From IMG/VR virus record IMGVR_UViG_3300044680_000280, positions 310,001 to 374,000 of that record: a stretch of DNA of 64,000 nt; one strand, 5' to 3'. This DNA is from a virus. Positions 5,974 to 63,471 of the stretch are shown here, one piece after another (within the stretch, counting starts at the first letter, position 1; each line of letters starts with the position of its first letter). A program made the translations under genes and the position numbers. Below the pieces are notes generated by a model. It had not been told where the DNA came from. It searched no databases and saw only the letters and a list, made by a program, of their open reading frames with translations.

Positions 5974-6182
5974 TCAGATCATCCGGTGAGAGGATTCGGA
6001 TCGCACATGCCATTGCCCGATTGAGAATCATCCTAGACCAGGTCGAACAGACGCTCGACGTGGACGCGCCCCCGGGGCCGGATGTCGGTCAAGCGGTCGC
6101 TCATACTGGTGTCGATCTTGCATGTTCGATTGCCCGTCTGGAAGCCTACATGCGTGCGGAAGAAGATAACGGTGGGGCGTGA
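5964..6182 (+). CDS. hypothetical helical protein (72 aa)
   Basis: Two amphipathic helices (IAHAIARLRIILDQVEQTL and GVDLACSIARLEAYMRAEED). It overlaps the HTH gene by ten bases and the next gene through TGATG, so it is operonic. No family was recognised. Confidence 0.65.
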   Translation: MHVIRSSGERIRIAHAIARLRIILDQVEQTLDVDAPPGPDVGQAVAHTGVDLACSIARLEAYMRAEEDNGGA

Positions 6183-6691
6183 TGCCCGATTGGCTCAGTC
6201 ACTTGCTCATCTTTTTCAATGAAACGGGGGTTACCGAAGGCAAGCAGATCCTCTCCCTCTCTGAGCAGTGGCAACCCTTCACGGAAGAACAGTGGGTGAG
6301 ACTGGACTACCGAGTTCGGTCGGTCTGCGTCCGGGAGGCGATGTCGTTCTTCAATATGAGGCTTTTCAAGAGGCTCGGGGTATGTAAGCAGATTATCGAT
6401 CTGTGTGACCGTGCAGGTCGTGGTGAGATAGTCGCCCTTGTTGAGTGGAGCGAAGCTCGCGCCCTGGCGTCAGGTAAGGGTCTGCCAGTCGAGATCGTGA
6501 GAGCAACGCGAGAGCCGTCGTTGGTTGGGTCCTGGGTGGTTCGTGAGTTGGCGTCGTTGGTGTCTAGGAAACGAGGGGCACTGACGTGCGTTGCTCAAGC
6601 CACGTACAAGCTCATCGAGGAAGAGATCCGAGTAACGAGAGCCGCTCGTCTAACCGTCTGGTCGCATCTGATGGACGAGGACTCGGTGTAA
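6182..6691 (+). CDS. paralogue family protein (MP[DE]WL) with WDHLM tail
   Basis: Shares MPxWLSxLL, EEQWVRLDYRVRSVC(V)REA, LCDR-x-GRGE and TRAAR with the protein at 52628-53119, so the two are clear paralogues. It ends LTVWSHLMDEDSV, a full WDHLM tail. ATG 6182 is preferred to the GTG at 6179 because the paralogue begins with the same MP-x-W. Its last codons GTG TAA are the GGTGTAA promoter box of the next gene. The function is unknown. Confidence 0.75.
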   Translation: MPDWLSHLLIFFNETGVTEGKQILSLSEQWQPFTEEQWVRLDYRVRSVCVREAMSFFNMRLFKRLGVCKQIIDLCDRAGRGEIVALVEWSEARALASGKGLPVEIVRATREPSLVGSWVVRELASLVSRKRGALTCVAQATYKLIEEEIRVTRAARLTVWSHLMDEDSV

Positions 6692-6700
6692 GGATAGGCT

Positions 6701-7528
6701 ATGTCCGAACCGAAAGAGCTAATTCGTGGAGTCGCAGACGCAGAAGTGCGTACGGTTTCAATTGACGTGCCATACGGTCAGGGCTGGCGCGTCTCCGTTG
6801 GGAAGGTTTCTCTCACGTCGGATTCGTCTTTAGCGTCCGTCACCGTCGTAGGACCCAACGGGGGCTTGCGGACCATCGGAATCGACTTGGACAAGGTCAT
6901 TTTACTCAATCCGCCGATGGACATTCCGACTCCCGACAGGGCGGTCGTTCACCATGTCGCAAACGTCATGAACGACGTACGGCGCAGTCGCTTGCTGGGC
7001 GGCTCGGTCGCGAACACAGAATCCGCAACGCAGCTTCTTCTTGAACTCGTCCGAGGGGATGAGTCATCTTTGGGGAGAAGCGTCCTCATCCGTAAGGACC
7101 GTACGAAGGGCACCTATACGGCGCGTTGGATGGAACGGAACGTCATCGGACAGGGGATGACGCTTGAACAAGCCCTTCAGGAACTTAAGGCGGTCATCCT
7201 CTTTCAGGAGAAAATTGACGAGGAGGTTCTTGCCGCGGCTGAGGGAGATCAGCGTCTTGGGTCAGACTCTTTCATCGAATTCGCGCTGAACGTTCCCATA
7301 AACGATCAGTGGCGGGTCACCATGGCACGGATCGGTGCGGACTTGGCTCCCATCGCACATGTGGTTTTTCAATGCCTCGACGGGCGAGAGCATATTACGG
7401 GCATCCATCTTGACAAGGGGATCCTGCTGTGTCCACTCATTCACTTACCAAATCCGACCCCTGAGGTCATGAGCCAGATAGTGTCGAGAATGAATGAAGA
7501 ACGGGCTCGGTCACGGACCTACAGGTAG
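6701..7528 (+). CDS. duplicated-domain protein with central HicB-like segment
   Basis: Residues ~18-95 and ~198-270 are two copies of one domain: IDVP-x-GQGWRVSVGK...IGIDLDKVILLNPP and NVPINDQWRVTMAR...TGIHLDKGILLCPL. A third copy seems present in the 32788-33222 protein. Between them lies a HicB-like stretch (TYTARWMERNVIGQGMTLEQ then AL-x-EL). The start follows GGTGTAAGGATAGGCTATG. No known family name can be given for the duplicated domain. Confidence 0.7.
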   Translation: MSEPKELIRGVADAEVRTVSIDVPYGQGWRVSVGKVSLTSDSSLASVTVVGPNGGLRTIGIDLDKVILLNPPMDIPTPDRAVVHHVANVMNDVRRSRLLGGSVANTESATQLLLELVRGDESSLGRSVLIRKDRTKGTYTARWMERNVIGQGMTLEQALQELKAVILFQEKIDEEVLAAAEGDQRLGSDSFIEFALNVPINDQWRVTMARIGADLAPIAHVVFQCLDGREHITGIHLDKGILLCPLIHLPNPTPEVMSQIVSRMNEERARSRTYR

Positions 7529-7611
7529 GTCCACTTCGGTCTCAATTCGCAAAAGCAGTGGGTCGAAACCATGGGTACATTACAGTCCAGAAGGAAAATG
7601 TAGGTGGTCTA

Positions 7612-7839
7612 ATGGGTCGTCCCGGTGGTAACAGTGGCAAAGGTGGGCGCAATTACCGCCTGAACTGGAAAGACCACGACGGAGTGTCAAGATACTCGAA
7701 GTGGTCGATCCACCTCAACTCTGCTGGGAAGGCTGTCATCTGCTTTGACGGGCAACCCATGACGGGCACCCGCTCCTTCGCTTCCGTGGAGAACGCAAAG
7801 CGGCGGGTGGAGAAGATGATAAGAAAGGCGAAACTATAA
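7612..7839 (+). CDS. hypothetical protein (75 aa)
   Basis: Glycine-rich N-terminus, then a beta-rich core (YRLNWKDHDGVSRYSKWSIHL) and a basic C-terminal helix. It resembles a small single-sheet nucleic-acid-binding fold, but no family can be named. An upstream in-frame GTG at 7558 is possible. The stop overlaps the next ATG (TAATG). Confidence 0.6.
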   Translation: MGRPGGNSGKGGRNYRLNWKDHDGVSRYSKWSIHLNSAGKAVICFDGQPMTGTRSFASVENAKRRVEKMIRKAKL

Positions 7840-8042
7840 TGGCTCAGCACGTCAAGCCCGCTGATCACCCGAACTGTCCCGAATGCCGAGGGGAGACGGT
7901 CGAAGAGCTCCCCGGTGCCCCCGAGTGCTCTCTCGGGTGCCACTTCTACATCCGGAGCCTGGGCGCTTGGTTCGACGCTGACGTGCGAGGGGGCCCGCCC
8001 CTCGCAACGCGGCCGCCGTGCGCCCCCGAGGACGTTGTTTGA
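7839..8042 (+). CDS. zinc-knuckle microprotein (67 aa)
   Basis: Two Cys pairs, CPEC at 17-20 and CSLGC further on, make a probable zinc site. It is the last gene of the run starting at 7612. Confidence 0.6.
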   Translation: MAQHVKPADHPNCPECRGETVEELPGAPECSLGCHFYIRSLGAWFDADVRGGPPLATRPPCAPEDVV

Positions 8043-8044
8043 GG

Positions 8045-8073
8045 TTGAACGTGGTTTCGATCTACGCTGTACT
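8045..8073 (+). promoter_or_regulatory. type 2 promoter, leaderless
   Basis: TTGAAC - 17 bp - TGTACT, with ATG of the next gene exactly six bases after the -10 hexamer. Confidence 0.7.
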
Positions 8074-8079
8074 TCCGCC

Positions 8080-9657: not shown

Positions 9658-9660
9658 CCG

Positions 9661-13608: not shown

Positions 13609-13635
13609 TACACCGGGTCCCCGCCCTCGGTGTAA
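13609..13635. promoter_or_regulatory. divergent GGTGTA promoter pair
   Basis: TACACC 13609-13614 serves the minus-strand operon and GGTGTAA 13629-13635 serves the gene at 13646; the boxes are only 14 bp apart. Confidence 0.7.
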
Positions 13636-13645
13636 AGATAGTCTC

Positions 13646-14569
13646 ATGCCGTTGGACGATGATGAGGTGCGGGTCCTAAATCTACGAATCCTGAATCTTG
13701 AGAACCATCTCGCGACGGTCAACGCGGTTCTTTCTCGTATGGCATTGCTTGAGACACCCTCGGTTGAGCCCCCAACCCCACCAGAGACCCCACCAGAGGT
13801 TGAATTCGATGAAACGGACCTCGCACGTATTTGGGTGGAGTGGGGTGAAGTTGAGGGCCGCATTGTTAACGACGGGCACCACCCCATTACTGAGCACTAT
13901 CCCGACAGTGCGTCCGGGTTCGAGTTGTACAGGGAAGAGTGGCTCGAACTACGAATGGGGTCTGAGGAATCGACATGGAACTCAGCTCAACAGAGCGCGG
14001 CTAGAGTTGTCAGGGCTATGCCGAATCCTTATGTGTTACAAGAGAGGGCTCAGGATGCATGGCATTCCATGTCCAGGTACATACAAGAAACGGGGCATCA
14101 TCCGTTTCTGTACGAGGGGAGAGAGTACGCTGATTCGGCGGCGGGGTTCGAGTTGTTCATTGACTATTGGGTAGAGAGATACGTGGGCTTGTGGGGTCGT
14201 GGGTCCTCAAGGTATGAGCTCCAAACCCGCATTGTGAATCGTATTGTCACCGCAACGCCGAACCCCTATTTGCTAAGGGCGCAGGGCCCGGGTCTTCGGG
14301 ATGAATTTCCAATACAGGCCATCGCATTGACCTCAGACTTCGAGGACGTGCCTCCAAACGTCGTCAAGGCCGAGTCAATACTATTGACTCCTGAGGAAGT
14401 GGCTAGACTCACAGGTTACCTCAAACCCTACGAAATGTCGGTCGGTCAGTTGGCCACCAACCTTTTGCGAGAATGGCTCACCACCCATCGAGAGTATGAA
14501 ATTGCAGCGGTGGATCAATCACCCAAGACCATTTGGGACCACATTATGGACGTCCCCACTGAGGGGTGA
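13646..14569 (+). CDS. repeat-domain protein A with WDHLM tail (307 aa)
   Basis: ATG 13646 lies 10 bases after the GGTGTA box; the frame upstream crosses the divergent promoter and is rejected. An N-terminal coiled coil (VLNLRILNLENHLATVN) is followed by two copies of a ~75-residue domain with the pattern HP...Y-x-DS-x-x-GFEL(Y/F)-x-x-x-W ... V-x-A-x-PNPY. The C-terminus is SPKTIWDHIMDVPTEG. Three further copies are in the protein at 15258-16523. No known domain was recognised; the four-gene cluster 13646-16523 may act together. Confidence 0.75.
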   Translation: MPLDDDEVRVLNLRILNLENHLATVNAVLSRMALLETPSVEPPTPPETPPEVEFDETDLARIWVEWGEVEGRIVNDGHHPITEHYPDSASGFELYREEWLELRMGSEESTWNSAQQSAARVVRAMPNPYVLQERAQDAWHSMSRYIQETGHHPFLYEGREYADSAAGFELFIDYWVERYVGLWGRGSSRYELQTRIVNRIVTATPNPYLLRAQGPGLRDEFPIQAIALTSDFEDVPPNVVKAESILLTPEEVARLTGYLKPYEMSVGQLATNLLREWLTTHREYEIAAVDQSPKTIWDHIMDVPTEG

Positions 14570-14574: not shown

Positions 14575-14898
14575 ATGGCAAAAGCACGAGGCATGATTGT
14601 CTACCGGGGATCGAGCACCAACCTGCTCGATACGGACAGATTCTACGCAAATTCAGACCCCACAATGGGGTACCGAATTGTGAACCCAGGTTACACACGG
14701 AACGGGGAGACGATAGAGGTCGAAGCTGAACAGGACGGGGAACACGGGAATCGCCCTTCAGGTGAGACCCTCACCTTTCTCTTCATTTCTACCCATTCCG
14801 TTGTGAACATCGTCGGTGGTGCCGATCTGATTCCTATTCCCATCGAACTTAACGGACCTCGGAAGACAATATGGGAACATTTGGTGGGTGAAGGGTGA
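14575..14898 (+). CDS. WDHLM-tail protein (107 aa)
   Basis: A beta-rich protein (GMIVYRGSSTNLLDTDRFY, then TLTFLFISTHSVVNIVG) ending GPRKTIWEHLVGEG. It follows repeat-domain protein A directly. The function is unknown apart from the shared tail. Confidence 0.7.
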   Translation: MAKARGMIVYRGSSTNLLDTDRFYANSDPTMGYRIVNPGYTRNGETIEVEAEQDGEHGNRPSGETLTFLFISTHSVVNIVGGADLIPIPIELNGPRKTIWEHLVGEG

Positions 14899-14919: not shown

Positions 14920-15255
14920 ATGCCTCCCTCTGAGAACCACTCAGAATGTGATGCTCGCATCGAGGCACTCCACTCAGAATGTGATGCTCGCATCGTGACA
15001 CTCCAGTTGGAAGTGCGGCGGCTCGATACACGGCTTATTTGGCTCAATACACGGCTCGTAACTCTAGAGGCAACGGTTGAGGAACGGAATGATGAACCGG
15101 AGACGACCTTAGCTTCCGAGGACGGATCACCCCCGTTCCGTGTGCCCAGTCTCTGGTCCTCGGATATCGTGGTATCCCATATATTCGAAGAACATAAGGA
15201 CGACGGTTCACCTAGGGTCTCAGCTTGGGATCACATAATGAGTGAGGACGCTTGA
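14920..15255 (+). CDS. coiled-coil WDHLM-tail protein (111 aa)
   Basis: The N-terminus has an 11-residue tandem repeat (HSECDARIEAL, HSECDARIVTL) leading into a coiled coil (VRRLDTRLIWLNTRLVTLEA). A Ser/Pro-rich linker ends in SPRVSAWDHIMSEDA. GGTGTAA at 14904-14910 sets the start. The coiled coil suggests oligomerisation that would display several tails. Confidence 0.75.
   Translation: MPPSENHSECDARIEALHSECDARIVTLQLEVRRLDTRLIWLNTRLVTLEATVEERNDEPETTLASEDGSPPFRVPSLWSSDIVVSHIFEEHKDDGSPRVSAWDHIMSEDA
14937..14995 (+). repeat. 26-bp tandem repeat, 33-bp period
   Basis: The 26-bp units at 14937-14962 and 14970-14995 are identical. The 33-bp period keeps the reading frame and encodes the 11-residue coiled-coil repeat. 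Confidence 0.85.
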
Positions 15256-15257: not shown

Positions 15258-16523
15258 ATGCCCGACGAAGTCACCACCCGAATTGAAGCGCTCGATAGAC
15301 GGATCTCCGACATCGAATCCCTTTACGGTAACCTCAGGGTGGTCAACTTTGAGAGCCAGGTTCGAGCTGCGTGGGCTCCCATTGAGGAGCAGATCCAATC
15401 GAGCGGACGTCACCCTCTCGAGTTCAACGGTTCTACCTACCCCGACACAAGTAGTGGATTTGAGAGGTTCCGTATCGACTGGATCTACGGCATCGTTGCT
15501 GTTGCTGAGACATCCCCACTGTACAACATCAGACTTCAAATTGCGTCTCTAGTGGTGATGTCAGTTCCCAACCCCTACATGTCACTAATCAATGTAGGAA
15601 ATCCAGACATTAATATGGGCTCCGGGGAGTGGGTACAGGTAGGAACCACTCGGTTTGCTGCTGCATACGAGAGTGCGATTCGAAGCTTATGGGGCAGGGC
15701 GATACCGCAAGAGTACGCGAGAGATTGGGTGGGATTTGAGTCTTTTCGTCAGGATTGGGTGACTCTACAGTTGCAGGATTACCCAACGACGAGTCCCGGA
15801 TACGCCGCTAGGGAGCCTATTATTAGGCGAGTGGTGGACGAGACGCCGAATCCGTATCCACGTATGGACAACCCTCAACGGGACATTCCCACTGCGACGA
15901 CTCTTGTCGATCTCGTACAGGCGGGCTCGTCGGCTGATGTAAGGGTCATCGCATTCATAGGTCGGGTTCGAGCTGCATGGGGGGAATCCGCTGCCTTCAT
16001 TGCGAGTAACGGTAGTCACCCCTTGCGTCCCATCTTTGGCATCTATGGTGAATCCGAAGAAGAGTACAATCGTTTCGTCGAGGATTGGATCAGCACTTTT
16101 ATCAGCGAAGATGTGACTGAGGATGAGCCGGACGACACCTATAAAACGATACTCGCGAATGGCGTCGTGTCTGAGACCCTTAACCCCTTTCGAACTCGTC
16201 GGCTTCACGCCTCGGTAGCCGGTGGTTCGATCGCGCCTACCGGCGGAACAGTTACGAATCAAATCGCCGACGATACGGTCGGATACGACATCGCTCTTCA
16301 GGAGTTCTTCATCCGGTTGCCGAATGTCACGCATTCCCAGATGCTTGAGTTTCAGAACGAAGTCTCTCACGTCGTACCCACCCGGGCGGGGGACGCTGTC
16401 GTTGCCTATATGAGGCGCACGGTAGGGGGTTTTTTCGGGACCGTAAAGCGAGATCCCTCGCCCGTTGAAAAAATTGAACCCAAGGTCTCCATTTGGGACC
16501 ATTTAATGGAAGGAGACCGGTAA
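15258..16523 (+). CDS. repeat-domain protein B with WDHLM tail (421 aa)
   Basis: A short coiled coil (TRIEALDRRISDIESL) is followed by three copies of the domain seen in protein A: HPLEFNGSTYPDTSSGFERF...PNPYM; GFESFRQDW...TPNPYP; HPLRPIFGIYGESEEEYNRF...TLNPF. The end EPKVSIWDHLMEGDR is a full tail. ATG 15258 overlaps the preceding stop region. The middle repeat is the most divergent and lacks the HP motif. Confidence 0.75.
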   Translation: MPDEVTTRIEALDRRISDIESLYGNLRVVNFESQVRAAWAPIEEQIQSSGRHPLEFNGSTYPDTSSGFERFRIDWIYGIVAVAETSPLYNIRLQIASLVVMSVPNPYMSLINVGNPDINMGSGEWVQVGTTRFAAAYESAIRSLWGRAIPQEYARDWVGFESFRQDWVTLQLQDYPTTSPGYAAREPIIRRVVDETPNPYPRMDNPQRDIPTATTLVDLVQAGSSADVRVIAFIGRVRAAWGESAAFIASNGSHPLRPIFGIYGESEEEYNRFVEDWISTFISEDVTEDEPDDTYKTILANGVVSETLNPFRTRRLHASVAGGSIAPTGGTVTNQIADDTVGYDIALQEFFIRLPNVTHSQMLEFQNEVSHVVPTRAGDAVVAYMRRTVGGFFGTVKRDPSPVEKIEPKVSIWDHLMEGDR

Positions 16524-16539: not shown

Positions 16540-17028
16540 TCACACATGCCAAAGGAGAGAACGTGGCGCCACGGTGCAGATTCCCTTGGAGGCGGTCACT
16601 AGAGCCGCCTCCTCCCGTGGGTCTAAAGAGACCGTCACCGCGTACTTGGGGTTGCCCGAGATGATCTTAATAGATGGCACATAACGCCGCAGACTCGTAA
16701 TAATGTCCACTTCTCTGCCCGCCGCTGACTCCCGTAGAAGCTCGGGAAGCAGCGTCAAGGTTCTCTCGAGCAGGATTCCTCCCAGTGCCTTTATGGATTG
16801 TTCGAGTGTCACTACCGATGGCAGACGTTCCAGGCTCGAGGTCCGCTGCCAAGCCACGTCGTCTAGTACCTTTGTGGCCGCCAAGACGATCTGGTAGAGA
16901 TCGAGCAGGTCCCTCGCCCTAATGCAGGGCTCATGATTGCATTCCTCAAAAGAACATTTGTGACCCATACCCTCATGGTGGTCTTTACGGTCCTGAGCAC
17001 TTGCTACTGCGTTCACAAAACTACCCAT
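16540..17028 (-). CDS. hypothetical helical protein with Cys cluster (162 aa)
   Basis: CSFEECNHEPC near residue 25 is a possible metal site; the rest is helical (LLDLYQIVLAATKVLDDVAW). ATG 17028 overlaps the end of the upstream WDHLM-tail gene and follows AGGAAGGGCAAGACA. Confidence 0.65.
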   Translation of the reverse strand: MGSFVNAVASAQDRKDHHEGMGHKCSFEECNHEPCIRARDLLDLYQIVLAATKVLDDVAWQRTSSLERLPSVVTLEQSIKALGGILLERTLTLLPELLRESAAGREVDIITSLRRYVPSIKIISGNPKYAVTVSLDPREEAALVTASKGICTVAPRSLLWHV

Positions 17029-17269
17029 TGTCTTGCCCTTCCTCTTCCAGCATGTGTTCAAAGACTGTTTTGGAATTAACCGGTTTTACGGGAATTTCTT
17101 GTGGTTGAGGAACGACTACGGGCTGCTCTGGCACCACCGCTCGTCGGGCTCTCCATCGGTTCCAAAGGGAACCAAAGAGGTTGTTGCGCACCGCGGTGGA
17201 TAGAGCGGCAAAGAACATGCTCACCGCGGTGTATGCCCCAACCTCCATAATGGTGTCGCGCGGTGTCAT
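17021..17269 (-). CDS. membrane-anchored WDHLM-tail protein (82 aa)
   Basis: One membrane segment (VGAYTAVSMFFAALSTAV, ~9-26), a basic stretch, a Pro/Val-rich linker, then NSKTVFEHMLEEEGQDNG, a tail with Phe replacing Trp. If the N-terminus is outside, the tail faces the cytoplasm, which would tether tail-binding partners to the membrane. It starts four bases after the upstream stop. Confidence 0.7.
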   Translation of the reverse strand: MTPRDTIMEVGAYTAVSMFFAALSTAVRNNLFGSLWNRWRARRAVVPEQPVVVPQPQEIPVKPVNSKTVFEHMLEEEGQDNG

Positions 17270-17727: not shown

Positions 17728-18531
17728 GGCGGAGGGGGTACCCCTCTCTTCGAGAAGTTGAAGAACGGTCTTTTTCTGGTCCCGCCAGGCCACGTACTCG
17801 TCCTTCGTCATGCCGAGCCACGTCCAGACCTCGACACTGCGATCGACCGATTGGCGTTTCTTCCAGTCGTCTAAGTCTTTCAAAACCTCTTCTGGCTCGG
17901 CGCACCCGTGATCCAGACGGTCCATGAAAGGACCGTCTATGTAGTCGTCCTTCCACGAATCGAACCGTTGAGCCAGCTTCGCAAGTCGCCTCTTGGCATC
18001 ATATTGGGCTTGGACCTTCCGGACATAAGCCTCTTCGACGCCGTTGTGGTGATTGTGAAACGCTCGGTAGAGGGCTTCGGCGTCCTCGGGGGACAGTTGC
18101 GGGGCAAGCCTATGGTAGAGTGAAAACGAGTGGCGATCGATGCCCGTTGCCACTCGACCGAGTCCGTAGATGCCGTGAGCGAGGAGTAGAAGCGGAGACG
18201 TCAAGATTAGAGCAGGCAGACCGAGAAGAGCAATGCCGATTTCAGCCGAACCGTAACCACTGGTCCCGCTGATCAAATCCCAAGTGACGCGGGTGAAAAC
18301 GTTCTCTTCAGCGTCAATGTTGATCGTCCAGACGACTCCGCCTTCGACCTGACCGTGTATGGCCAATCGGGCGGGCTGTTCTTCTTCGCTCCCAAAATAG
18401 TCCTTCTTGACCTCACGCGGTAGGTGGAGCGCCTGGATAACAGTCAGCTTCTTCGTGCTGGGGAAGTCAAGAGCCAGCACGGGGGCGATGATCTGGGAAC
18501 CGAGAATGGGTCCTAACGCGTCGATGTTCAT
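17713..18531 (-). CDS. membrane protein with C-terminal helical domain (272 aa)
   Basis: An N-terminal beta-rich part (to ~85) is followed by a hydrophobic hairpin (IGIALLGLPALILTSPLLLL at ~97-116) and a long charged helical region. The end WLGMTKDEYVAWRDQKKTVL is a motif seen in many phage hypothetical proteins. AAAAGGACACAAA precedes the ATG. The function is unknown. Confidence 0.65.
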   Translation of the reverse strand: MNIDALGPILGSQIIAPVLALDFPSTKKLTVIQALHLPREVKKDYFGSEEEQPARLAIHGQVEGGVVWTINIDAEENVFTRVTWDLISGTSGYGSAEIGIALLGLPALILTSPLLLLAHGIYGLGRVATGIDRHSFSLYHRLAPQLSPEDAEALYRAFHNHHNGVEEAYVRKVQAQYDAKRRLAKLAQRFDSWKDDYIDGPFMDRLDHGCAEPEEVLKDLDDWKKRQSVDRSVEVWTWLGMTKDEYVAWRDQKKTVLQLLEERGTPSALREK

Positions 18532-18546
18532 TTTGTGTCCTTTTCA

Positions 18547-18852
18547 TCACCCAATGTAGGAGCGCTCGTGACCGCACCCCCGGCAATAATTGCTGGGCCA
18601 AGAGGCCTCGTTTTTGCACTTTTTGTTGAGGCAAGGTACGCCTTTGGACGTATCCTTGGGGGGATGAGGTTTCGGAAGCGAGCTAGGCGGCTTTTCGGTC
18701 GTCAGCATGTCGATGTGAAACAGCTCCTCGTAAACCGACTGGCCGCTGAACCACTTGCAGAGGACCCTGACCCTGTCCTCGGCGATGGTACTGGAGTAGA
18801 TGGTCATGGCTGGGCCGCCAGACTTGAGGTAGACGACGTCTCCGATCCGCAT
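18547..18852 (-). CDS. DUF2158 protein with C-terminal zinc ribbon
   Basis: Residues 1-55 are DUF2158 (GDVVYLKSGGPAMTI ... CKWFSGQ). After a Pro/Lys linker comes a ribbon with C-x4-C...C-x2-C (VPCLNKKCKN ... NYCRGCGHE), related in layout to the CPNxSCQR ribbon of three other proteins. The start follows GGTGTAAGAGTAAGGCATG. Confidence 0.8.
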   Translation of the reverse strand: MRIGDVVYLKSGGPAMTIYSSTIAEDRVRVLCKWFSGQSVYEELFHIDMLTTEKPPSSLPKPHPPKDTSKGVPCLNKKCKNEASWPSNYCRGCGHERSYIG

Positions 18853-18862
18853 GCCTTACTCT

Positions 18863-18976
18863 TACACCGTTTGAGAAGCCCCACCCCGTGTTCTTGGCAA
18901 TTTGGTCGCAACGGGGCGGGGGTGGTCGTAGGCCGGGGAGCTAGATAATCGTAGCATACCGGACGAGACCGGTGTA
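18863..18976. promoter_or_regulatory. divergent promoters flanking a 100-bp gap
   Basis: TACACC 18863-18868 serves the DUF2158 operon and GGTGTA 18971-18976 serves the HTH gene. The gap between is non-coding and may hold operator sites for the HTH protein. Confidence 0.55.
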
Positions 18977-18986
18977 TGGTGTCGGT

Positions 18987-19280
18987 ATGGGTGCACATTG
19001 GGCAACCGAACTCAAGGCGAAGCTGGACGAGGCCGATCCTTCTGATGACGCCGTGTTCGCTGAGCTCGTAGGGACCACTCTCGAAGCGACCAACACGTCG
19101 GACGCAGATGCGGCCGAGATACTGGGCGTCTCCCGTCCGACGGTCACTCGGTGGAGGCTGAGACAGTCCGTACCCCATCCGGCTATTCGGTCGACGATCT
19201 TCAAAATGCTGAAGGATCAGATCAGCCTACACACACTCAAGCATTTTCGTCGGCTTCGGCGCGGACAGAACCTTCTGTAG
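18987..19280 (+). CDS. helix-turn-helix protein (97 aa)
   Basis: DADAAEILGVSRPTVTRWRL (about 42-61) is a clear helix-turn-helix, followed by PHPAIRSTI, shared with the proteins at 5713-5973 and 49789-50094. ATG 18987 lies 10 bases after the GGTGTA box. It is probably a transcriptional regulator, perhaps of the divergent operon. Confidence 0.75.
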   Translation: MGAHWATELKAKLDEADPSDDAVFAELVGTTLEATNTSDADAAEILGVSRPTVTRWRLRQSVPHPAIRSTIFKMLKDQISLHTLKHFRRLRRGQNLL

Positions 19281-19554: not shown

Positions 19555-19891
19555 TCACGACTCGTCCTCAACGAGGTGGTCCCAAACGGTTCGGCGCGGT
19601 GCTGGAGTCCCCTTTGGGCGGGGATCAAAGGGGATCTTGACGTCCTGTCCAGGTGACAACGGGGGGAGTTTCCCTTCCGCCCTCAACCGTTCCCCTAGTT
19701 CTGAGAAGAGGAGTCTCCCTTGTGCGGTCCTACGATAACCGTCATCTTGGTCAATTGAATCCCAAGGTAAGTCGGCGTAGTACTTTCCGAAGCATCTGTT
19801 GCAGGCCCAATTGACAGAACCCTTCCATAGAAGAATCCCCGCAGCACGGGCACACCGTCAACGGTCCGGTCGCTTCGTAGGTGGGCTTCAT
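19555..19891 (-). pseudogene. frameshifted paralogue of the 21062-21379 WDHLM protein
   Basis: Reading from ATG 19891 gives MKPTYEATGPLTVCPCCG, matching MILQPAYEPEGPLTVCPCCG of the neighbour. The frame then breaks: the neighbour has TGTGGGATC where this copy has TGCGGGGATT. Removing one G restores ...KYYADLPWD...LGERLRAEGKLPPLSPGQDV and the tail PRRTVWDHLVEDES down to TGA 19555. It is either a pseudogene, a sequencing error in the G-run or a programmed frameshift. A GGTGTA box is still present upstream (TACACC 19902-19907). Confidence 0.75.
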
Positions 19892-19918
19892 TCTGCCATT
19901 ATACACCGCCGGTTCCCG

Positions 19919-20838: not shown

Positions 20839-21078
20839 ATGGAACAGGTGAAGTACCCCAAGTTCGAGTTTTCGGACCTACTCTACCGCAAAACGGTTGT
20901 GTCCGGGCACACGTTTGTGGCAAAGGAGGACGAAAACACTAGTAACCTCGTCGTCTGCTCCGTGTGCGGACTCGAAGGATGGGGCGTTCGCGAGGCGGGC
21001 GTCGACTCGATCAAGAGCTACTCGCCAAACAAGCCGTGCACATCGAAGGTTAGGACGGTAGTCAATCCTCATTCGTGA
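20839..21078 (+). CDS. zinc-knuckle protein (79 aa)
   Basis: CSVCGLEGWG gives one Cys pair and a later single Cys a possible third ligand. The ATG is 21 bases after the GGTGTA box, so the mRNA has a short leader here. The end overlaps the convergent WDHLM gene by 17 bases. Confidence 0.65.
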   Translation: MEQVKYPKFEFSDLLYRKTVVSGHTFVAKEDENTSNLVVCSVCGLEGWGVREAGVDSIKSYSPNKPCTSKVRTVVNPHS

Positions 21079-21379
21079 GGTGATCCCAGACAGTAAGGCG
21101 AGCCCTCGGGGTGAACGCGACTTGGATGTCTTGATCTGGAGGTAACAAGGGCAGTTTCCCTTCTACCCGCAGGCGCTCCCCGGTCTCTGCGAATAGTTTG
21201 CGCCCTTCTTTGACATGAGAGTTGAGGGGGTCGTGGCCGAGAATTGTATGTGGTAAGTACTGACAATACTTACTGAAACAATCATCGCAGGCGAAAAGTT
21301 GCTTCTTATCCACCGAGATCCCACAGCACGGGCACACCGTCAACGGCCCTTCGGGTTCATAGGCGGGTTGCAATATCAT
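21062..21379 (-). CDS. zinc-finger WDHLM-tail protein (105 aa)
   Basis: CPCCG (18-22) and CDDC form a four-Cys site. The second half is helical with GERLRVEGKLPLLPPDQDI, then RARLTVWDHLTNED. Its frameshifted paralogue is at 19555-19891. The GGTGTAAAGAACCCGCATG arrangement fixes the start. Confidence 0.8.
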   Translation of the reverse strand: MILQPAYEPEGPLTVCPCCGISVDKKQLFACDDCFSKYCQYLPHTILGHDPLNSHVKEGRKLFAETGERLRVEGKLPLLPPDQDIQVAFTPRARLTVWDHLTNED

Positions 21380-21389
21380 GCGGGTTCTT

Positions 21390-21419
21390 TACACCGTAAC
21401 TTTACGGTGTACCGGTGTA
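21390..21419. promoter_or_regulatory. overlapping divergent promoters with palindrome
   Basis: TACACC 21390-21395 faces left; two GGTGTA boxes (21406-21411 and 21414-21419) face right. ACACCGTAA...TTACGGTGT is a perfect inverted repeat, so the divergent promoters share symmetry. Confidence 0.65.
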
Positions 21420-24595: not shown

Positions 24596-24871
24596 TTACA
24601 CCGAGGGATCCATGAGATGGTCCCAAACCGTCTTCACTGGAATCTCTTCTTTCGGGGCCGCGGGCGGGTCATTTCCGTAAATGATTGACTCGCTGAGCAC
24701 GGGATGCCCCTCGCAGCATCTTTCATCCCACACGAAATGCGGATTTGCTGCGTGACGGCGAGTTGCTTTGGCGGCTCGTTCTGCGTCGGAAGGGGAATCA
24801 TGGTCGCTGCATCGAAGGCACCAACACTTTCCGCACCCCGCACACACCACTTCTATGCAATGGTTACCCAC
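24596..24871 (-). CDS. zinc WDHLM-tail protein (91 aa), GTG start
   Basis: The N-terminus is dense in cysteines (CIEVVCAGCGKCWCLRC), a likely zinc module, with CC-x2-H further on. It ends VKTVWDHLMDPSV; the final GTG TAA is the next gene's promoter box. The GTG start overlaps the 25-aa membrane gene by eight bases. Confidence 0.75.
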   Translation of the reverse strand: MGNHCIEVVCAGCGKCWCLRCSDHDSPSDAERAAKATRRHAANPHFVWDERCCEGHPVLSESIIYGNDPPAAPKEEIPVKTVWDHLMDPSV

Positions 24872-25399: not shown

Positions 25400-25611
25400 A
25401 AAAGACGATCAATGCGAGCGCCAAGCCGTCTAAAAGCTCTACCCGAGCCAAAGAGAAGCGTAAAATCAAAGAGATAATTGATTGCGAGGGCTTCCACTAC
25501 GGCCTCGTCTCCTACAGCGACTTCGAAGACGTCAAGGATGAGCGTTTCCACGAGCTCCTCAAAGCGTATCGTTTGGCCGCGGGGGCAATCGAAGAGTACC
25601 TCAATCTTTGA
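25396..25611 (+). CDS. hypothetical protein with basic N-terminus (71 aa)
   Basis: A lysine/serine-rich start (MKKTINASAKPSKSSTRAK) precedes an acidic helical domain. Coupled by ATGA to the preceding gene; its end overlaps the convergent WDHLM gene. Confidence 0.65.
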   Translation: MKKTINASAKPSKSSTRAKEKRKIKEIIDCEGFHYGLVSYSDFEDVKDERFHELLKAYRLAAGAIEEYLNL

Positions 25612-25891
25612 GCAGATGGTCCCATATGGTCATGGTCGGCTTCTCGCGAACCTCCTCTTTGAGGGTTTTTCTGACCACACGGATGATCTTTGCTCGGTTT
25701 ATGCTTACACGGCCGTGATGGGAATCTTCCCAGGCCTTCAATAATTCACGAGCACGGGCTCGGGTCATGACTTCTGGCCTTTGGTGCGTGTCATACACGC
25801 CCTGCACGTTTAACCCGACCCTCGGGTTAAACGTGACGTACCATTTGTGCCTCTGCGTCCTAACCAGGTACCCTAGGACCTCCTTATTCAT
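25601..25891 (-). CDS. WYV/RARAREL-domain WDHLM-tail protein (96 aa)
   Basis: The first 55 residues match the domain in the 17271-17711 protein (GYLVRTQRHKWYV, VMTRARARELLKAW). The C-terminus KPTMTIWDHLLKD is a full tail. The start overlaps the stop of the 24-aa tail peptide upstream. Confidence 0.75.
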   Translation of the reverse strand: MNKEVLGYLVRTQRHKWYVTFNPRVGLNVQGVYDTHQRPEVMTRARARELLKAWEDSHHGRVSINRAKIIRVVRKTLKEEVREKPTMTIWDHLLKD

Positions 25892-25958
25892 CGTGTGCGA
25901 TCCTCTCCCACACGCTCAACTTGGCGCTGAGCCATCGGGCGATGAAATTGGGAATCAT
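25884..25958 (-). CDS. 24-aa micropeptide consisting of helix plus WDHLM-like tail
   Basis: MIPNFIARWLSAKLSVWERI then AHDE: an amphipathic helix running directly into a tail variant (KLSVWERIAHDE). A GGTGTA box (reverse of TACACC 26017-26022) lies 58 bases upstream; frames extending toward it lack a good start and would read through the 21-bp repeat. It is a minimal tail carrier coupled to a full tail protein. Confidence 0.5.
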   Translation of the reverse strand: MIPNFIARWLSAKLSVWERIAHDE

Positions 25959-26651: not shown

Positions 26652-27179
26652 ATGGAAGATGAAGTCACCAAATTGCGCCAGCAGGTCGAACAACTGCTAG
26701 GGGACATCCACGCGGTTTCCGAGGACTATGCGGACGCCAAGAAGCGTGCCGAAGAGGCAGAGGGTAAGCTCGACCGTATCCTCAAGCTGCCCCGGAAGTC
26801 CTACGGAGGTGATGTCAATGCTGACGGTTGGAACAACGCCCTCGATGAGATTCAGATCATCGTCGGGGCTCGGCGGGCCGTTTCACCAGAGGAGCGCGTC
26901 GAGACCGCTCCGTATCATTACACGTTCTACGTGCGTCCCCACAGAAACAGCAAACAAGAACCGTGCCCTATCAACAAACTTCACGTGGCGGTTGAAGCGG
27001 ACGGGACGGCCTGTCCGCCTCCGACGGCCTGTCCGGACTGTAAAACGGACCTGCTTTTTCGCCTCGCCACTAGGGGCCCAGCCAACGTGTTCGAGATCCT
27101 CGACAGAGACGAAGGTGTCGTATACGATGAGGACATCAAGAATCTGTGGGGCTCTCTCCTGGAGTCGGAAACGGTGTAA
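26652..27179 (+). CDS. coiled-coil/zinc protein with degenerate tail (175 aa)
   Basis: A coiled coil at ~1-45 (VTKLRQQVEQLLGDIHAV), a central domain, then CPDCKTD. It ends IKNLWGSLLESETV, a weakened WDHLM-type tail. A GGTGTAATGGGGCTCTCATG site sits exactly upstream of this ATG, inside a longer frame from ATG 26562 that adds 30 residues. Two forms may be made. The final GTG TAA is the next promoter box. Confidence 0.6.
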   Translation: MEDEVTKLRQQVEQLLGDIHAVSEDYADAKKRAEEAEGKLDRILKLPRKSYGGDVNADGWNNALDEIQIIVGARRAVSPEERVETAPYHYTFYVRPHRNSKQEPCPINKLHVAVEADGTACPPPTACPDCKTDLLFRLATRGPANVFEILDRDEGVVYDEDIKNLWGSLLESETV

Positions 27180-38468: not shown

Positions 38469-39239
38469 TCAGAATTGCAGTTTCGGACTGTCGCCCGGGT
38501 CGTCGCCCGCTATCGGCTCATCGTTCAATATGCCTCTGGCGATGCATATATCCCAGAAGGCATACCAAACAGTTCGAGTCTCCGCGCGGACTGCATTCAA
38601 GGCGCGGAGAACAATGTTTTTGTCGTCCTCGTTTTCTGCCTTCTCGTAGATGTCTCGTAGATGTTGGATACTGGTATGGAGGACACCCAATCCTGACACC
38701 CAATCCACGTCCTGTTTGATATTTGAGTCGTCGGGTATCAACTTCGTCAGGGCCCAAAGGACACGGTAGATGTCCCCCGTTGAGAGGACGAATCGGTCAG
38801 GATCAGAAGAGTTCCACCGTTTCTCGAACTCGGTTTTCCATTCAGGAGGGGGGTAGAGAGGTGCTTCTGGCGCCCCTCGGAGAAGGAACTTCTTGAGGCT
38901 CGGGAACTCTTGAGCGAGCTTGCATACGCTTGCCCACTGTCGGCTCGTCGGAGCCCTCAGAACGCCATCGAGCGCCTCATTCAAGTGCTCAACCGGGATT
39001 CCGTGCTCAGTGGCGAAGTGAGCACACTGTCGGTCATTTGGATCACAATCCCAACGACGGCCTCGGATAATACGCTTGAGCTCAGTGGCAAGCGAGACGT
39101 TCGTGTAGGCGGCGATGTCGGTCGGAAGCGGGGGCTCGACGTAGACGTACGGTCTCTCTTCTTCCTCGAGAATGTGTTCCCACACCGACTTTTTCGGCTC
39201 CCGCATGGGAGCCTTTGCACGGCGCAAGCTGATTGCCAT
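38469..39239 (-). CDS. 256-aa protein with N-terminal WDHLM motif
   Basis: EPKKSVWEHILEEEE lies at residues ~14-28, not at the C-terminus; this is the only N-terminal example. The rest is helical (VEHLNEALDGVLRAPTSRQW, VLWALTKLIPDDSN). GGTGTACGTATAGGTGCATG fixes the start, so the motif position is not an artefact. No family was recognised. Confidence 0.75.
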   Translation of the reverse strand: MAISLRRAKAPMREPKKSVWEHILEEEERPYVYVEPPLPTDIAAYTNVSLATELKRIIRGRRWDCDPNDRQCAHFATEHGIPVEHLNEALDGVLRAPTSRQWASVCKLAQEFPSLKKFLLRGAPEAPLYPPPEWKTEFEKRWNSSDPDRFVLSTGDIYRVLWALTKLIPDDSNIKQDVDWVSGLGVLHTSIQHLRDIYEKAENEDDKNIVLRALNAVRAETRTVWYAFWDICIARGILNDEPIAGDDPGDSPKLQF

Positions 39240-39794: not shown

Positions 39795-40346
39795 TTACAT
39801 CAAATCGGCGGGGTCGCCCGGCTCGGCGTCCGCCGGACCATCGAACTCAACCGAACCCTTGACGAGGTCCTTTTTGAACTGTCGCTTGAGGAACTTCTCG
39901 AGCGCGACCAGGAACTCGGGCGAGTTGGCGACATCCGAGACGTCCGCCGTCGCTGTAAATAGGACGTTCATCTTGTGGTAAAAAGGCTGCTTGTTCATGG
40001 TGTCAGTACGGCGTGGCGAGTGTGGGGGTTCAAGTGCTTCGTCCATGAGGTGGCTCCAAATGGTGCGACGCGGTCCGTTTGGAGCCACCTTGGGCTCCTC
40101 CTTCAGCTCTTCGACCAAAGACTGACGCTCATCCCGCTCTCGAATGATTCGTCGTAAGACGTCGACGGCGCCCCCATCCGGCCCATGTTCACCGACGTGT
40201 TGGACGAGTATTTGTAGCAGCTCCCCGTACGTGCCTGGAACCGCCATTGCTTCCCCATCCTGAAGCTGAGACAGGAGATCGGAAACGGCATCGAGCTCCC
40301 CTGGGAGCAGGTCACCGAGCAAGTCTCGTTGGAGGGTAAAAGGCAT
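39795..40346 (-). CDS. protein with internal WDHLM motif (183 aa), possible gene fusion
   Basis: Residues ~1-90 are a helical domain with an acidic linker, ending GPRRTIWSHLMDEA at ~92-105, which looks like a normal protein end. A linker (LEPPHSPRRTD) and a second domain starting MNKQPFYHKMNVLFTATADV follow without a stop. This suggests a fusion after loss of the stop, or an internal start at that Met. Promoter GGTGTAGGTAAATC upstream. Confidence 0.7.
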   Translation of the reverse strand: MPFTLQRDLLGDLLPGELDAVSDLLSQLQDGEAMAVPGTYGELLQILVQHVGEHGPDGGAVDVLRRIIRERDERQSLVEELKEEPKVAPNGPRRTIWSHLMDEALEPPHSPRRTDTMNKQPFYHKMNVLFTATADVSDVANSPEFLVALEKFLKRQFKKDLVKGSVEFDGPADAEPGDPADLM

Positions 40347-42695: not shown

Positions 42696-43046
42696 TCACT
42701 CGTCTTCCACGAGGCGTTGCCATAAGGTCGTTCGTGGCTCGGAAGGGGGCTCCTCAGGGCACGGTTCTTTCGTGAGGGTTAGGAGGTACTTCCAGACAGG
42801 ACAGTCGTTGTCGTGTCGCCTCTCGTTGGGCATGATGCTTTCAGAGTCGAATCCGCAGAACAGACATTCCCCTGCCTGTTCTGCGTACTCAACGGCATCC
42901 TGACCGATTTCGGCTCGGGCGATGAGCTCCTCAAGAACGCTTTCAAATTCATCCCACACCTTCTTGGCGTATTCGGGCGAACTGAGCGCCTGGGTCCTCC
43001 TGGCTTTTTTCAGGAGCGCAAGGGCCTCTTCCCCGGAACAGGGCAT
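42696..43046 (-). CDS. zinc WDHLM-tail protein (116 aa)
   Basis: Helical N-terminal part (YAKKVWDEFESVLEELIARA), then C-x2-C...H-x4-C, and the tail EPRTTLWQRLVEDE (H replaced by R). TGATG overlap with the upstream gene decides ATG 43046 over longer frames. Confidence 0.75.
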   Translation of the reverse strand: MPCSGEEALALLKKARRTQALSSPEYAKKVWDEFESVLEELIARAEIGQDAVEYAEQAGECLFCGFDSESIMPNERRHDNDCPVWKYLLTLTKEPCPEEPPSEPRTTLWQRLVEDE

Positions 43047-52627: not shown

Positions 52628-53119
52628 ATGCCGGAGTGGCTTTCTAGCCTGCTCAGATTATTCACCGATAATGGGGTCAGGAACGGGATCGTCTCGGATC
52701 TAGCCAGTCGGTGGGGCGTTCTGTCTGACGAACAGTGGGTGAGACTGGACTACCGAGTCCGGTCGGTTTGCATCCGTGAAGCGGTGAGTCACACGAACGG
52801 TATTACGATTCTCGCTGTTTGTGAGACCGCGGCAACTCTATGTGACCGTAGAGGTCGAGGTGAGCCCGTCACTGATGCCGAATGGTTGGACGCCCGCCGC
52901 AAGGCGTCGGCGGTGACAGGGAGTCCGGCGGTGGTGGCGTTGGCGTCGACGTTGGCAGCATCGAATTCGATGCCATGTGCATGGTTGGCGGCGAGTTCGG
53001 CATCGTCGTTGACCCGCATTGCCCAAGCCACCTACGACCTCATCGACCAAGAAATCGATTTGACGCGAGCCGCCAGACCCAAAGCCATGACGATCTGGGA
53101 GCACATAATGGAGAATTGA
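52628..53119 (+). CDS. paralogue family protein (MP[DE]WL) with WDHLM tail (163 aa)
   Basis: Paralogue of 6182-6691: MPEWLSSLL, DEQWVRLDYRVRSVCIREA, LCDRRGRGEP, LTRAAR. It ends KAMTIWEHIMEN. GGTGTACGCTATTGGGTATG fixes the start. The Ala/Ser-rich region at ~100-130 is longer than in the paralogue. Confidence 0.75.
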   Translation: MPEWLSSLLRLFTDNGVRNGIVSDLASRWGVLSDEQWVRLDYRVRSVCIREAVSHTNGITILAVCETAATLCDRRGRGEPVTDAEWLDARRKASAVTGSPAVVALASTLAASNSMPCAWLAASSASSLTRIAQATYDLIDQEIDLTRAARPKAMTIWEHIMEN

Positions 53120-54663: not shown

Positions 54664-54861
54664 ATGGCCACCAAACCCGTCTTCCCGATTGGCGCCGCCG
54701 TCTACATCGATGGTCGCGATGCCGCGATCGTTCGAGCCGCCTTTCCCGAGGGCTCGTCATCTTTTCTGTTCCCGCACTACAAGGTGCACGTCATCGGCGG
54801 CGACAGAAACATGGCCGTTTCGATGTCCCGCGTTGGGGTGAAACGGAAGGAATCGGTGTAA
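54664..54861 (+). CDS. hypothetical small barrel protein (65 aa)
   Basis: FPIGAAVYIDGRDAAIVRAA then FPHYKVHVIGG resembles a small SH3-like barrel. Its final codons GTG TAA belong to the next promoter box. Confidence 0.65.
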   Translation: MATKPVFPIGAAVYIDGRDAAIVRAAFPEGSSSFLFPHYKVHVIGGDRNMAVSMSRVGVKRKESV

Positions 54862-54870
54862 CTGTACAGA

Positions 54871-55179
54871 ATGGCCCACGTGTGGACTACAACGCTGCCC
54901 GACAAGACTACAGTGTGGGTGTATTCGCGCTTCTACCATCAGGGTGTCCACTACAACGGGACCTGCTGTCAATACTGCGGAGCCCAAAAGTGCACCGTTC
55001 CGGGGAGCCGTGCGGGTCTTGTTCGCACCCTCTACATCACATTCAAATACGGCAAACCGTATCGTTTTAGTCCCAAAGCCCCGATCTGCATTCGAGAGGA
55101 CGAGACCTTTGCCGTTGAGGTACCCAAACCTCTCCCGAACAGGATGACGGTCTATGACCATCTGCTGAGCCCGAGCTAA
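54871..55179 (+). CDS. zinc WDHLM-tail protein (102 aa)
   Basis: CCQYC...C near residue 32 is a zinc-type cluster; basic middle; end NRMTVYDHLLSPS is a tail with Tyr for Trp. Leaderless start behind GGTGTAACTGTACAGAATG. Confidence 0.75.
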   Translation: MAHVWTTTLPDKTTVWVYSRFYHQGVHYNGTCCQYCGAQKCTVPGSRAGLVRTLYITFKYGKPYRFSPKAPICIREDETFAVEVPKPLPNRMTVYDHLLSPS

Positions 55180-61633: not shown

Positions 61634-61667
61634 GGGTGATTCTTACACCAGGTTCCGCGAAGGATGG

Positions 61668-61695
61668 TTGAACTTTCGGGCGGGTGTGTTGTATC
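61668..61695 (+). promoter_or_regulatory. type 2 promoter, leaderless
   Basis: TTGAAC - 16 bp - TGTATC, six bases, ATG 61702. Confidence 0.75.
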
Positions 61696-61701
61696 TATTC
61701 C

Positions 61702-62157: not shown

Positions 62158-62172
62158 GACTCATTCTGTTAC

Positions 62173-62214
62173 TACACCGATCCTGGAAGACTCGGGCATT
62201 TAATCCCGGTGTAA
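62173..62214. promoter_or_regulatory. divergent GGTGTA promoter pair
   Basis: TACACC 62173-62178 and GGTGTAA 62208-62214. The rightward transcript has a ~50-base leader before the next gene. Confidence 0.55.
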
Positions 62215-62269
62215 CTGGAAGTTCACTCTCCGATCCCGTCCTCGTCAAACTGACCAAGTAACGTAATGG

Positions 62270-62479
62270 GTGCGGCGCCGTCGACATCCACTTCGTCTCG
62301 TGTGGTTGTTGATTGTGCTTTGGTTTCGGAGCTGGCGGCTTCTCTGGAGGTGCCCCATCTGCTCGAAGGTCAGGCGCTGGGGAACCGAACACCCGCTCGA
62401 CACGTATCCGATGTTATGCGACATGTGGAACCAGCCGGAGTGCTGTCGTCGAGAGTTTCCTAAATGGGCGTACGCTTGA
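62270..62479 (+). CDS. membrane-anchored zinc protein (69 aa), GTG start
   Basis: Basic start, one short hydrophobic span (LVWLLIVLWFRSWRLLW), then CPIC ... C...CC, a compact zinc module. The overlapping frame from ATG 62266 is less protein-like. Confidence 0.5.
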   Translation: MRRRRHPLRLVWLLIVLWFRSWRLLWRCPICSKVRRWGTEHPLDTYPMLCDMWNQPECCRREFPKWAYA

Positions 62480-62504
62480 ACTTTCCGATGCTCCGCGCCG
62501 TACT
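62476..62504 (+). promoter_or_regulatory. type 2 promoter, leaderless
   Basis: TTGAAC - 17 bp - CGTACT, six bases, ATG 62511. Confidence 0.75.
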
Positions 62505-62510
62505 CCCGCC

Positions 62511-62933
62511 ATGGGTCTCATCGAACGTTTAATGCGGGAATTCCAGGATCGAAAAGCTCGTTGGCAACCAATTCGAGCAGCCATCCTCGCCCTTTCTGCC
62601 GAAGAACGCCTACAGTTCCTCGCGGAAATGATCACTGAAATCGAGGACAAAACCCCTAAAGGCAGACAGCTTAACAGCCACGATCACCTGTTAGCCGGGC
62701 CCGGTGAGTACACGTTTGGAGCGTCCAGGTTCCGCCTCAGTCGCAAAGTTGCAAAGAGGGTGGATCGCATCGCCAATGCGCACGGCTTTTGTCTGATTGA
62801 GGTCTCGAACTTTCCTGGTGGCGTGGAGTACCAGCGGTGGTTTTCTGGTCCGAGTCGTGGCAGCCCCATCGATGAAGAGACTGAGGTTGCCATTCTATCC
62901 GACATCGAGAAGGATGGGATCCCCTTGTGGTGA
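62511..62933 (+). CDS. hypothetical protein (140 aa)
   Basis: Helical N-terminal half (ALSAEERLQFLAEMITEIED), mixed C-terminal half (VAKRVDRIANAHGFCLIEVS). Exact leaderless start. No family was recognised. Confidence 0.7.
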   Translation: MGLIERLMREFQDRKARWQPIRAAILALSAEERLQFLAEMITEIEDKTPKGRQLNSHDHLLAGPGEYTFGASRFRLSRKVAKRVDRIANAHGFCLIEVSNFPGGVEYQRWFSGPSRGSPIDEETEVAILSDIEKDGIPLW

Positions 62934-62943
62934 CACTCGACGT

Positions 62944-62972
62944 TTGAACTTTCGGCTACACCACGCCGTACT
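62944..62972 (+). promoter_or_regulatory. type 2 promoter with leader
   Basis: TTGAAC - 17 bp - CGTACT; ATG 62993 follows a 20-base leader containing ACAGGAA. Confidence 0.65.
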
Positions 62973-62992
62973 TTCATGAGACAGGAACTTCA

Positions 62993-63175
62993 ATGTCACG
63001 CCCTACCAAAGCATCGCAATTCGTAGAAAGCCTTACAACGACTCAACGTCTCGCACTGATCGAGCTCATTGCTGGTACTGACGAGCTTGTCGGGCAGAAG
63101 AAGGCGACGTGCATACGTGACGCCCGGGCGCTCCTAGTGGGTGCCCTCGATCGCCTCTGCAAAGAATCTTGGTAA
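62993..63175 (+). CDS. hypothetical helical protein (60 aa)
   Basis: Helical throughout (FVESLTTTQRLALIELIAGT). No family was recognised. It ends two bases before the convergent WDHLM gene. Confidence 0.65.
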   Translation: MSRPTKASQFVESLTTTQRLALIELIAGTDELVGQKKATCIRDARALLVGALDRLCKESW

Positions 63176-63177
63176 CC

Positions 63178-63471
63178 TCAGTCGTCTCCCATCATCTGCT
63201 CAAAAATACTCTTCCGGGGCGGCGGTTCAGGAGGCGCGGGCGGGGGAGACGACGGTGTTCTCGGACGGTTCCCATGCCACGCCTCGATGTTCTCCAGGCT
63301 CCGCCTAGTCGTCGACGGACACGGTAGCTTCTCAGGATCGGTCTCGCCCGTAAAGTTGATTCCCCACGCCTCCCGCAACTCCTGCCATTCTGGGTGGCTA
63401 TCACAGTACTCACATTTTGCGGGGGCATGAAGTACGGATGAGTCGCAGTGGGGGAATTGCTCGATGGGCAT
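63178..63471 (-). CDS. zinc WDHLM-tail protein (97 aa)
   Basis: C...C-x2-C-x-H near the N-terminus (CDSSVLHAPAKCEYCDSH), a proline-rich linker, then PPRKSIFEQMMGDD, a tail with Phe and Gln substitutions. ATG 63471 follows GGTGTATGGAAGGGAATG. Confidence 0.7.
   Translation of the reverse strand: MPIEQFPHCDSSVLHAPAKCEYCDSHPEWQELREAWGINFTGETDPEKLPCPSTTRRSLENIEAWHGNRPRTPSSPPPAPPEPPPRKSIFEQMMGDD

Follow-up and report, generated by a model that had tools for sequence, protein, structure and literature searches.

A 64,000-nt stretch of viral DNA (the window; bases 310001-374000 of the 406,734-bp IMG/VR virus record IMGVR_UViG_3300044680_000280, classed linear and called G000 below) encodes many proteins that carry the same short peptide, a WDHLM-like tag whose copies lie nearly all within 10 residues of the C-terminus and have the G000 consensus P-R-K-[TS]-[VI]-W-[DE]-H-[LM]-[LM]-x-[DE]-[DE]. 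About 31 tagged open reading frames (ORFs) occur in the whole record, at 18.5 kb and 280-384 kb; of these, about 14 fall beyond the borders of the window (18.5 kb, 280-307 kb and 378-384 kb). G000 is a jumbo tailed phage, because it combines portal and head-protease matches with replication genes (family A DNA polymerase, NAD ligase, RecD2 and clamp-loader-like proteins), GroEL, a B12-dependent ribonucleotide reductase, about 38 transfer RNA (tRNA) genes and one transfer-messenger RNA (tmRNA). Its portal protein has 47 relatives in IMG/VR, several sized 300-530 kb, and its closest cultured phage with a matching portal, at 37% identity, is Tunturiibacter phage Tunturi_5. The jumbo-phage relatives G001, G002, G006, G007 and G008, each whole or in large part, as well as G010, were compared with G000. 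Positions are those of the window unless given for the record.

Tagged genes of the window

On the plus strand, ORF 13646-14569 (ending KTIWDHIMDVPTEG) heads a run of four tagged genes that continues with 14575-14898 (PRKTIWEHLVGEG), 14920-15255 (PRVSAWDHIMSEDA) and 15258-16523 (PKVSIWDHLMEGDR), the last being a distant paralogue of the first. Two further plus-strand ORFs, 6182-6691 (LTVWSHLMDEDSV) and 52628-53119 (KAMTIWEHIMEN), are paralogues of each other, and 54871-55179 ends in NRMTVYDHLLSPS. The minus strand carries tagged ORFs at 17021-17269 (SKTVFEHMLEEEGQDNG), 21062-21379 (ARLTVWDHLTNED), 25601-25891 (PTMTIWDHLLKD) and 42696-43046 (PRTTLWQRLVEDE), in addition to 24596-24871, a protein with a Cys-rich body whose end (PVKTVWDHLMDPSV) is the top-scoring copy, and 63178-63471, whose end (PPPRKSIFEQMMGDD) is preceded by a proline-rich linker. 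Also on this strand, 38469-39239 has an N-terminal copy (MREPKKSVWEHILEEEE), and in 39795-40346 an internal copy (PRRTIWSHLMDEA) is followed by a second segment, an arrangement that suggests a fusion between a tagged protein and a different one.

The original prediction listed 17 clear copies, 16 of which are present with the residues quoted. The span 19555-19891 does not form a single open frame; its tag sits on a short minus-strand ORF, 19555-19686 (PRRTVWDHLVEDES), apparently the 3' portion of a split paralogue of 21062-21379. An out-of-frame piece upstream of it, 19751-19906, also matches 21062-21379, and the interval 19555-19906 looks like a split copy of that tagged gene, with the N-terminal and tag parts in different frames. 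The minus-strand ORF 25884-25958 (AKLSVWERIAHDE) cannot be kept as a clear copy, its score of 15.6 being no better than that of the best shuffled protein (16.1). As for the two ends described as weak versions, both on the plus strand and both doubtful, 26652-27179 (NLWGSLLESETV / IKNLWGSLLESETV) is tag-like only, and 5246-5518 (ESLFGLLRGNLG, with ESLFGLL) falls outside the consensus of the window and of G000 and resembles the STLFRLLKDPE of another lineage. The claim that the proteins are otherwise unrelated was nearly right; the window contains the paralogous pairs 6182/52628, 13646/15258 and 19555/21062 (named by their first positions).

A pattern search of the record, compared with 200 shuffles of the proteins, places the motif far above chance. 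The 10-residue pattern initially put forward gives 8 copies within 10 residues of the C-terminus and 2 elsewhere (10 in total, against 0.01 in shuffles), and a 7-residue core gives 19 terminal copies and 5 elsewhere (24 in total), for which the shuffled expectation is 0.075 terminal and 0.73 overall. A matrix trained on two relatives only, which avoids the circularity of training on a genome's own hits, recognizes 18 G000 C-termini at a score of at least 12, compared to 0.8 in shuffles (maximum 3).

Lineage dialects and selection on the peptide

A screen that used no prior motif and ranked 4-residue patterns by their enrichment at ORF ends, genome by genome, ranks the tag first in G006, G007 and G008. 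The winning patterns of G007 and G008 are pieces of LWDHL (with LWDH at 38 ORF ends versus 2 internal windows in G008), and that of G006 is P-x-R-F-x-R (49 ORF ends versus 4 internal windows). For G001, G002 and G000, which have fewer tagged proteins, this screen by itself does not reach significance, and the tag is detected there by pattern or matrix. Lists built for each genome with regular expressions, a few members of which may be chance, comprise 31 ORFs with TVWDHLM in G000, 46 proteins in G008 and 44 in G007 with LWDHL, 85 in G006 with [ST]R[FY][DE]Rx[DE][VP][LIV], about 15 in G002 with xLW[DE]R[LI]xxDE and about 7 in G001 with TAWxRLMGDDEY; the aromatic, acidic and His-or-Arg positions of the motif thus recur in the relatives. 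In hot regions, each 20 kb holds 37 to 60 called genes, of which 13 to 27 are tagged, and consecutive tagged genes form runs of up to seven. A tag of this kind was not seen in G010, Tunturi_5 or the first 200 kb of LR745208, and a search with the first tag pattern across all of IMG/VR returned two matches only, located on short fragments that are not evidently linked to the clade. About nine ORF ends in LR745208.1 (0-200 kb; L203-L206) share a different pattern, TPYRHG[KE]xTF, which is possibly a repeated DNA element and not a peptide tag.

The dialects are seen on one and the same protein, core1 (record 18524-19030), which has orthologues across the clade. Their C-termini read KTVFDHLLKDDEDT, LTAYDHLLGDTLGEDE, KTAFDHLLEGDDDEDTP, NLFDHLLDDED and STLFRLLKDPE, as well as TTLDRLMDTSPFDDEDD, SRFTREADDIVGDD, NLYDHLMGDE and NLYDHLLEDE; in lineages that bear clpX (see below), core1 ends in the lineage's own dialect, with a degenerate version (IDRILEDEG) in G002. 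The G010 orthologue is without the tag, and Tunturi_5 is without core1. The predicted structure of core1 is of high confidence (predicted local distance difference test, pLDDT, 85.7) and beta-rich, with small beta-barrels and one C-terminal helix, and the tag sits in a low-confidence, unstructured tail of the model. Compared with the PDB, the fold has no match better than E 0.08, and PDB profile searches with core1, its neighbour A9 and the PolA-linked protein A10 gave nothing significant.

Grouped by family, the 228 tagged proteins give 195 families, and 178 of these have a single member. Synonymous codons differ between copies of the tag, with 31 LWDHL copies represented by 20 DNA versions, another 22 by 19 and 64 RF[DE]R copies by 36; therefore, the tag is not a DNA repeat and selection acts on the peptide. 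It has, moreover, been gained by existing proteins. A DUF1643 protein of G000 (record 306966-307601) continues after the domain with a linker and RTTVYDHMMAPDEELT, and three DUF1643 homologues from Pseudomonas and Microbacterium phages stop after the domain without a tag, a comparison of sequences which indicates that the tag is an add-on; likewise, a phrog_1934-related protein is tagged in G001 and untagged in its G008 and G006 homologues. The region preceding the tag is proline-enriched in five of the six genomes. Beyond DUF1643, DUF3268, zinc ribbons and a KOW motif, Pfam and PHROGs match almost nothing among the tagged proteins, so that their function cannot be read from their bodies.

Conserved proteins have acquired the tag in internal positions as well. 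A DUF1848 protein of G007 has NRNLWDHVT inserted where five orthologues have a gap, and exactly this insertion (residues 219-226) falls below pLDDT 50 in its model. A conserved G008 protein whose gene lies beside that of the polymerase (PolA-linked) contains QNDLWDHLRDD in a loop that is shorter in four orthologues, and an SNF2-type helicase of G002 carries SPSLWDRIISDED between its two lobes. In the window itself, one copy lies at an N-terminus and one at a fusion joint. Such copies, together with the internal ones of the relatives, show that the tag does not need a free C-terminus. The proposal that the motif is a selected short linear signal is strongly supported by the shuffles, the unbiased C-terminal screen in relatives and the diversity of synonymous codons, and also by orthologues that keep the tag and by its lineage-specific insertion into enzyme loops.

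A probable common docking partner and the competing readings

Since the tag has been gained by unrelated proteins, is kept in orthologues, drifts coherently within each genome and is placed in flexible regions, it is probably a portable short linear docking motif for one common partner in this phage clade, as opposed to a protein domain, a repeat at the DNA level or a signal confined to the C-terminus. We infer that the partner is the same for all tags; it is probably encoded by the phage, because it must vary with the phage lineage. Such a motif would consist of a flexible, often proline-rich tail ending in [TS]-hydrophobic-aromatic-[DE]-[HR]-[LIM]-[LM]-x-[DE][DE], would probably fold as one amphipathic turn on binding, and would bring dozens of fast-evolving accessory proteins, occasionally a core enzyme, to the partner; tag and partner drifting together would then give each lineage its own dialect.

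The leading candidate for this partner, tentatively advanced from comparative analysis, is a ClpX encoded by the phage (record 25237-26523; L005:5237-6523, minus strand). The protein is full-length, passes both NCBIfam ClpX cut-offs (equivalog) and keeps a Cys4 zinc N-domain, a GYVG pore loop and an LGF/IGF-type loop, resembling those through which ClpX docks on ClpP. Of the G000 genes, 74 are conserved in the four other tagged genomes with good coverage; 16 of these, including clpX, are absent from G010, Tunturi_5 and the part of LR745208 that was examined, and ClpX is favoured because it is the sole candidate in this set of 16 with known recruitment of adaptors through a C-terminal tail. ClpX with a zinc N-domain is encoded in all tagged genomes; a search of 26 records detected it in 12, and the same 12 are those in which a tagged core1 was found. 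The adaptor SspB is tethered by its C-terminal tail to the zinc domain of ClpX (PMC7226468), and the tag has the layout of such a docking tail, a C-terminal motif behind a flexible linker (the proline-enriched region before the tag and the unstructured tail of core1). The zinc N-domain would bind the tag as it tethers the tail of SspB, and tagged proteins would be interchangeable adaptors or clients of the phage ClpX acting with ClpP. A more speculative version, which we regard as doubtful, is that the clade combines its own ClpX with a set of 30-85 small, swappable adaptors in every genome, which would differ in the host or phage protein that they capture. On this adaptor-repertoire reading, held with equal reserve, lineage-specific tails would plug into the phage ClpX, making the arrangement a viral, bacterial counterpart of target selection by cullin/F-box proteins.

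Several observations weigh against ClpX. Its correlation with the tag amounts to about a single phylogenetic contrast, because several of the ClpX-negative records are fragments that share an identical portal with a ClpX-positive record, and about 15 other core genes show the same presence pattern. Bacillus phage G has a ClpX-like gene and no tag visible in the 200 kb examined, and no ClpP-family match was obtained in G000. In addition, the tag is unlike the LKxh motif reported for the zinc domain of E. coli ClpX (PMC7226468), the known motif that binds this domain.

The main rival to ClpX is capsid loading, itself somewhat improbable, in which tagged proteins would be packaged into the head in the manner of T4 internal proteins and, once injected, would counter host defences or help to take over the host. 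T4 Ip1-3 have no homology besides the leader that directs packaging, have many counterparts in related phages and block host restriction enzymes (PMC12373910; PMC7697877). The tagged bodies are similarly small, hypervariable and located in accessory regions, and the scale of the repertoire would fit; however, the head cluster of G000 (166-177 kb of the record) has no tagged genes. Genes preceded by a strict GGTGTAA motif (60, four of them tagged) lie outside the structural part at 30-220 kb, suggesting non-late expression, an argument tempered by the fact that T4 internal proteins are likewise made early. Nor is there a conserved cleavage site of the prohead-protease kind: LM is followed by E, D, G, K, S, A or another residue. 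Excision of an internal copy would sever the protein that carries it. Whereas the T4 leader is N-terminal, the tag is nearly always C-terminal, with one N-terminal and several internal copies. No virion proteome for the clade was found in the literature, and the paper on the nearest isolate makes no mention of mass spectrometry.

Docking to a DNA, replication or transcription hub (sliding clamp, single-stranded DNA-binding protein (SSB) or phage nucleoid), by which accessory proteins would be brought to phage DNA, is rather unlikely. It draws on the internal copies in the SNF2 helicase and in the protein adjoining PolA, on the few bodies with zinc-ribbon or KOW/SH3-like domains and on the resemblance of the tag pattern to the C-terminal clamp-binding peptides of T4-type polymerases, but polymerase, ligase, RecD2 and clamp loader are untagged in G000. 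No beta-clamp was recognised in the clade, with no beta-clamp family match in seven records at E<=1; clamp-loader-like proteins are present. That the tag instead sets the lifetime of the tagged proteins themselves, as a degron or stability tag, appears distinctly unlikely. The many small accessory proteins, the phage ClpX and a tmRNA with an ssrA-type tag (ANDNGIPDLAIAA) are compatible with it, yet the ends are acidic, unlike the hydrophobic, LAA-like free C-terminus of ssrA-type degrons, and retention of the tag by core1 in every lineage is hard to explain. The copies in internal loops and at one N-terminus likewise speak against ssrA-like or PDZ-like recognition. Finally, absence of function, with the tag being a mobile DNA repeat or the remnant of one gene family with worn-out bodies, is extremely improbable: the tagged genes are clustered and a few are paralogous, but this explanation is already contradicted by the codon diversity, the 178 singleton families, the gain on an old domain and the dialects in orthologues.

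Known systems and accompanying observations

Recruitment to a hub by a short linear motif is a known principle; a phage clade sharing a lineage-specific motif on 30-85 unrelated proteins per genome is, as far as established, undescribed and new as a system. Literature searches returned nothing relevant on a shared C-terminal tag in phages, consistent with the initial statement that no such system had been described, and jumbo phages are known to encode ClpX, ClpP and ClpS (PMC7824862), but an accompanying tag is not known. The closest precedent is the N-terminal capsid-targeting leader of T4, with which the tag shares the principle of one short peptide on small, hypervariable, unrelated phage proteins in accessory loci (PMC12373910, PMC7697877). 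In contrast to that leader, which is N-terminal, about 10 residues long, cleaved in the prohead and reported on at least 10 proteins, the tag is C-terminal or internal, has no cleavage signature, occurs on 31-85 proteins in each of four genomes and has a dialect for each lineage. The SspB tail is comparable as a C-terminal docking peptide on a flexible tail, with a zinc-domain ClpX in every tagged genome, but it belongs to a single adaptor family and has another sequence, and ClpX binding is only proposed for the tag.

Cargo peptides of bacterial microcompartments and encapsulins are short, follow a linker and direct many unrelated cargos to one shell, at termini or in linkers. The tag resembles them in its placement on many unrelated proteins, and differs in its acidic end and in cargo mostly without assigned function; no shell or encapsulin is among the annotated family matches listed. 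The CheR/CheB-binding pentapeptide NWETF is, like the tag, a Trp-containing C-terminal tether, carried on a flexible linker by one chemoreceptor family as against 195 families here.

Most giant-phage proteins have no known function, and the tag groups 30-85 such proteins in each of four genomes, so that identifying the partner once would assign a process to the whole set. Should ClpX be the partner, these phages would target proteins by a modular system whose adaptors can be swapped; if the tag loads capsids, the clade would have an unusually large repertoire of injected effectors. Either way, the lineage dialects may serve as orthogonal peptide tags for bacterial protein targeting.

Tagged genes score below untagged small genes in codon usage (0.055 versus 0.113 per codon in G000, a gap that is smaller in G006, G007 and G008), hinting at recent origin or low expression. 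A second feature of the accessory regions is the motif CGGTGTA(A), found exactly 15-18 nt upstream of ATG at about 60 genes of the record in its strict form (GGTGTAA) and at 126 places as GGTGTA[AGT]. Examples are 13629-13646 (plus strand; 17 nt upstream of the ATG of 13646-14569), 54855-54871 (plus strand; 16 nt upstream of that of 54871-55179) and 21379-21395 (minus strand). Present also in relatives, the motif has the appearance of either an unusual signal for starts or a -10 element that serves leaderless transcripts; it marks accessory genes generally, not tagged genes alone, and by the strict count is missing from the structural part, outside of which it is found record-wide. Host-type promoters are not enriched at tagged genes.

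The phage-encoded tmRNA (record 224741-225104; L015:4741-5104, minus strand), with tag peptide ANDNGIPDLAIAA, lies among the tRNA genes. Two neighbouring minus-strand genes beside a RuvC-like gene, L014:1651-2553 and L014:2673-3560, encode conserved proteins of about 300 residues whose acidic tails have a hydrophobic tip, and the product of the former occupies the position of the annotated SSB in Tunturi_5.

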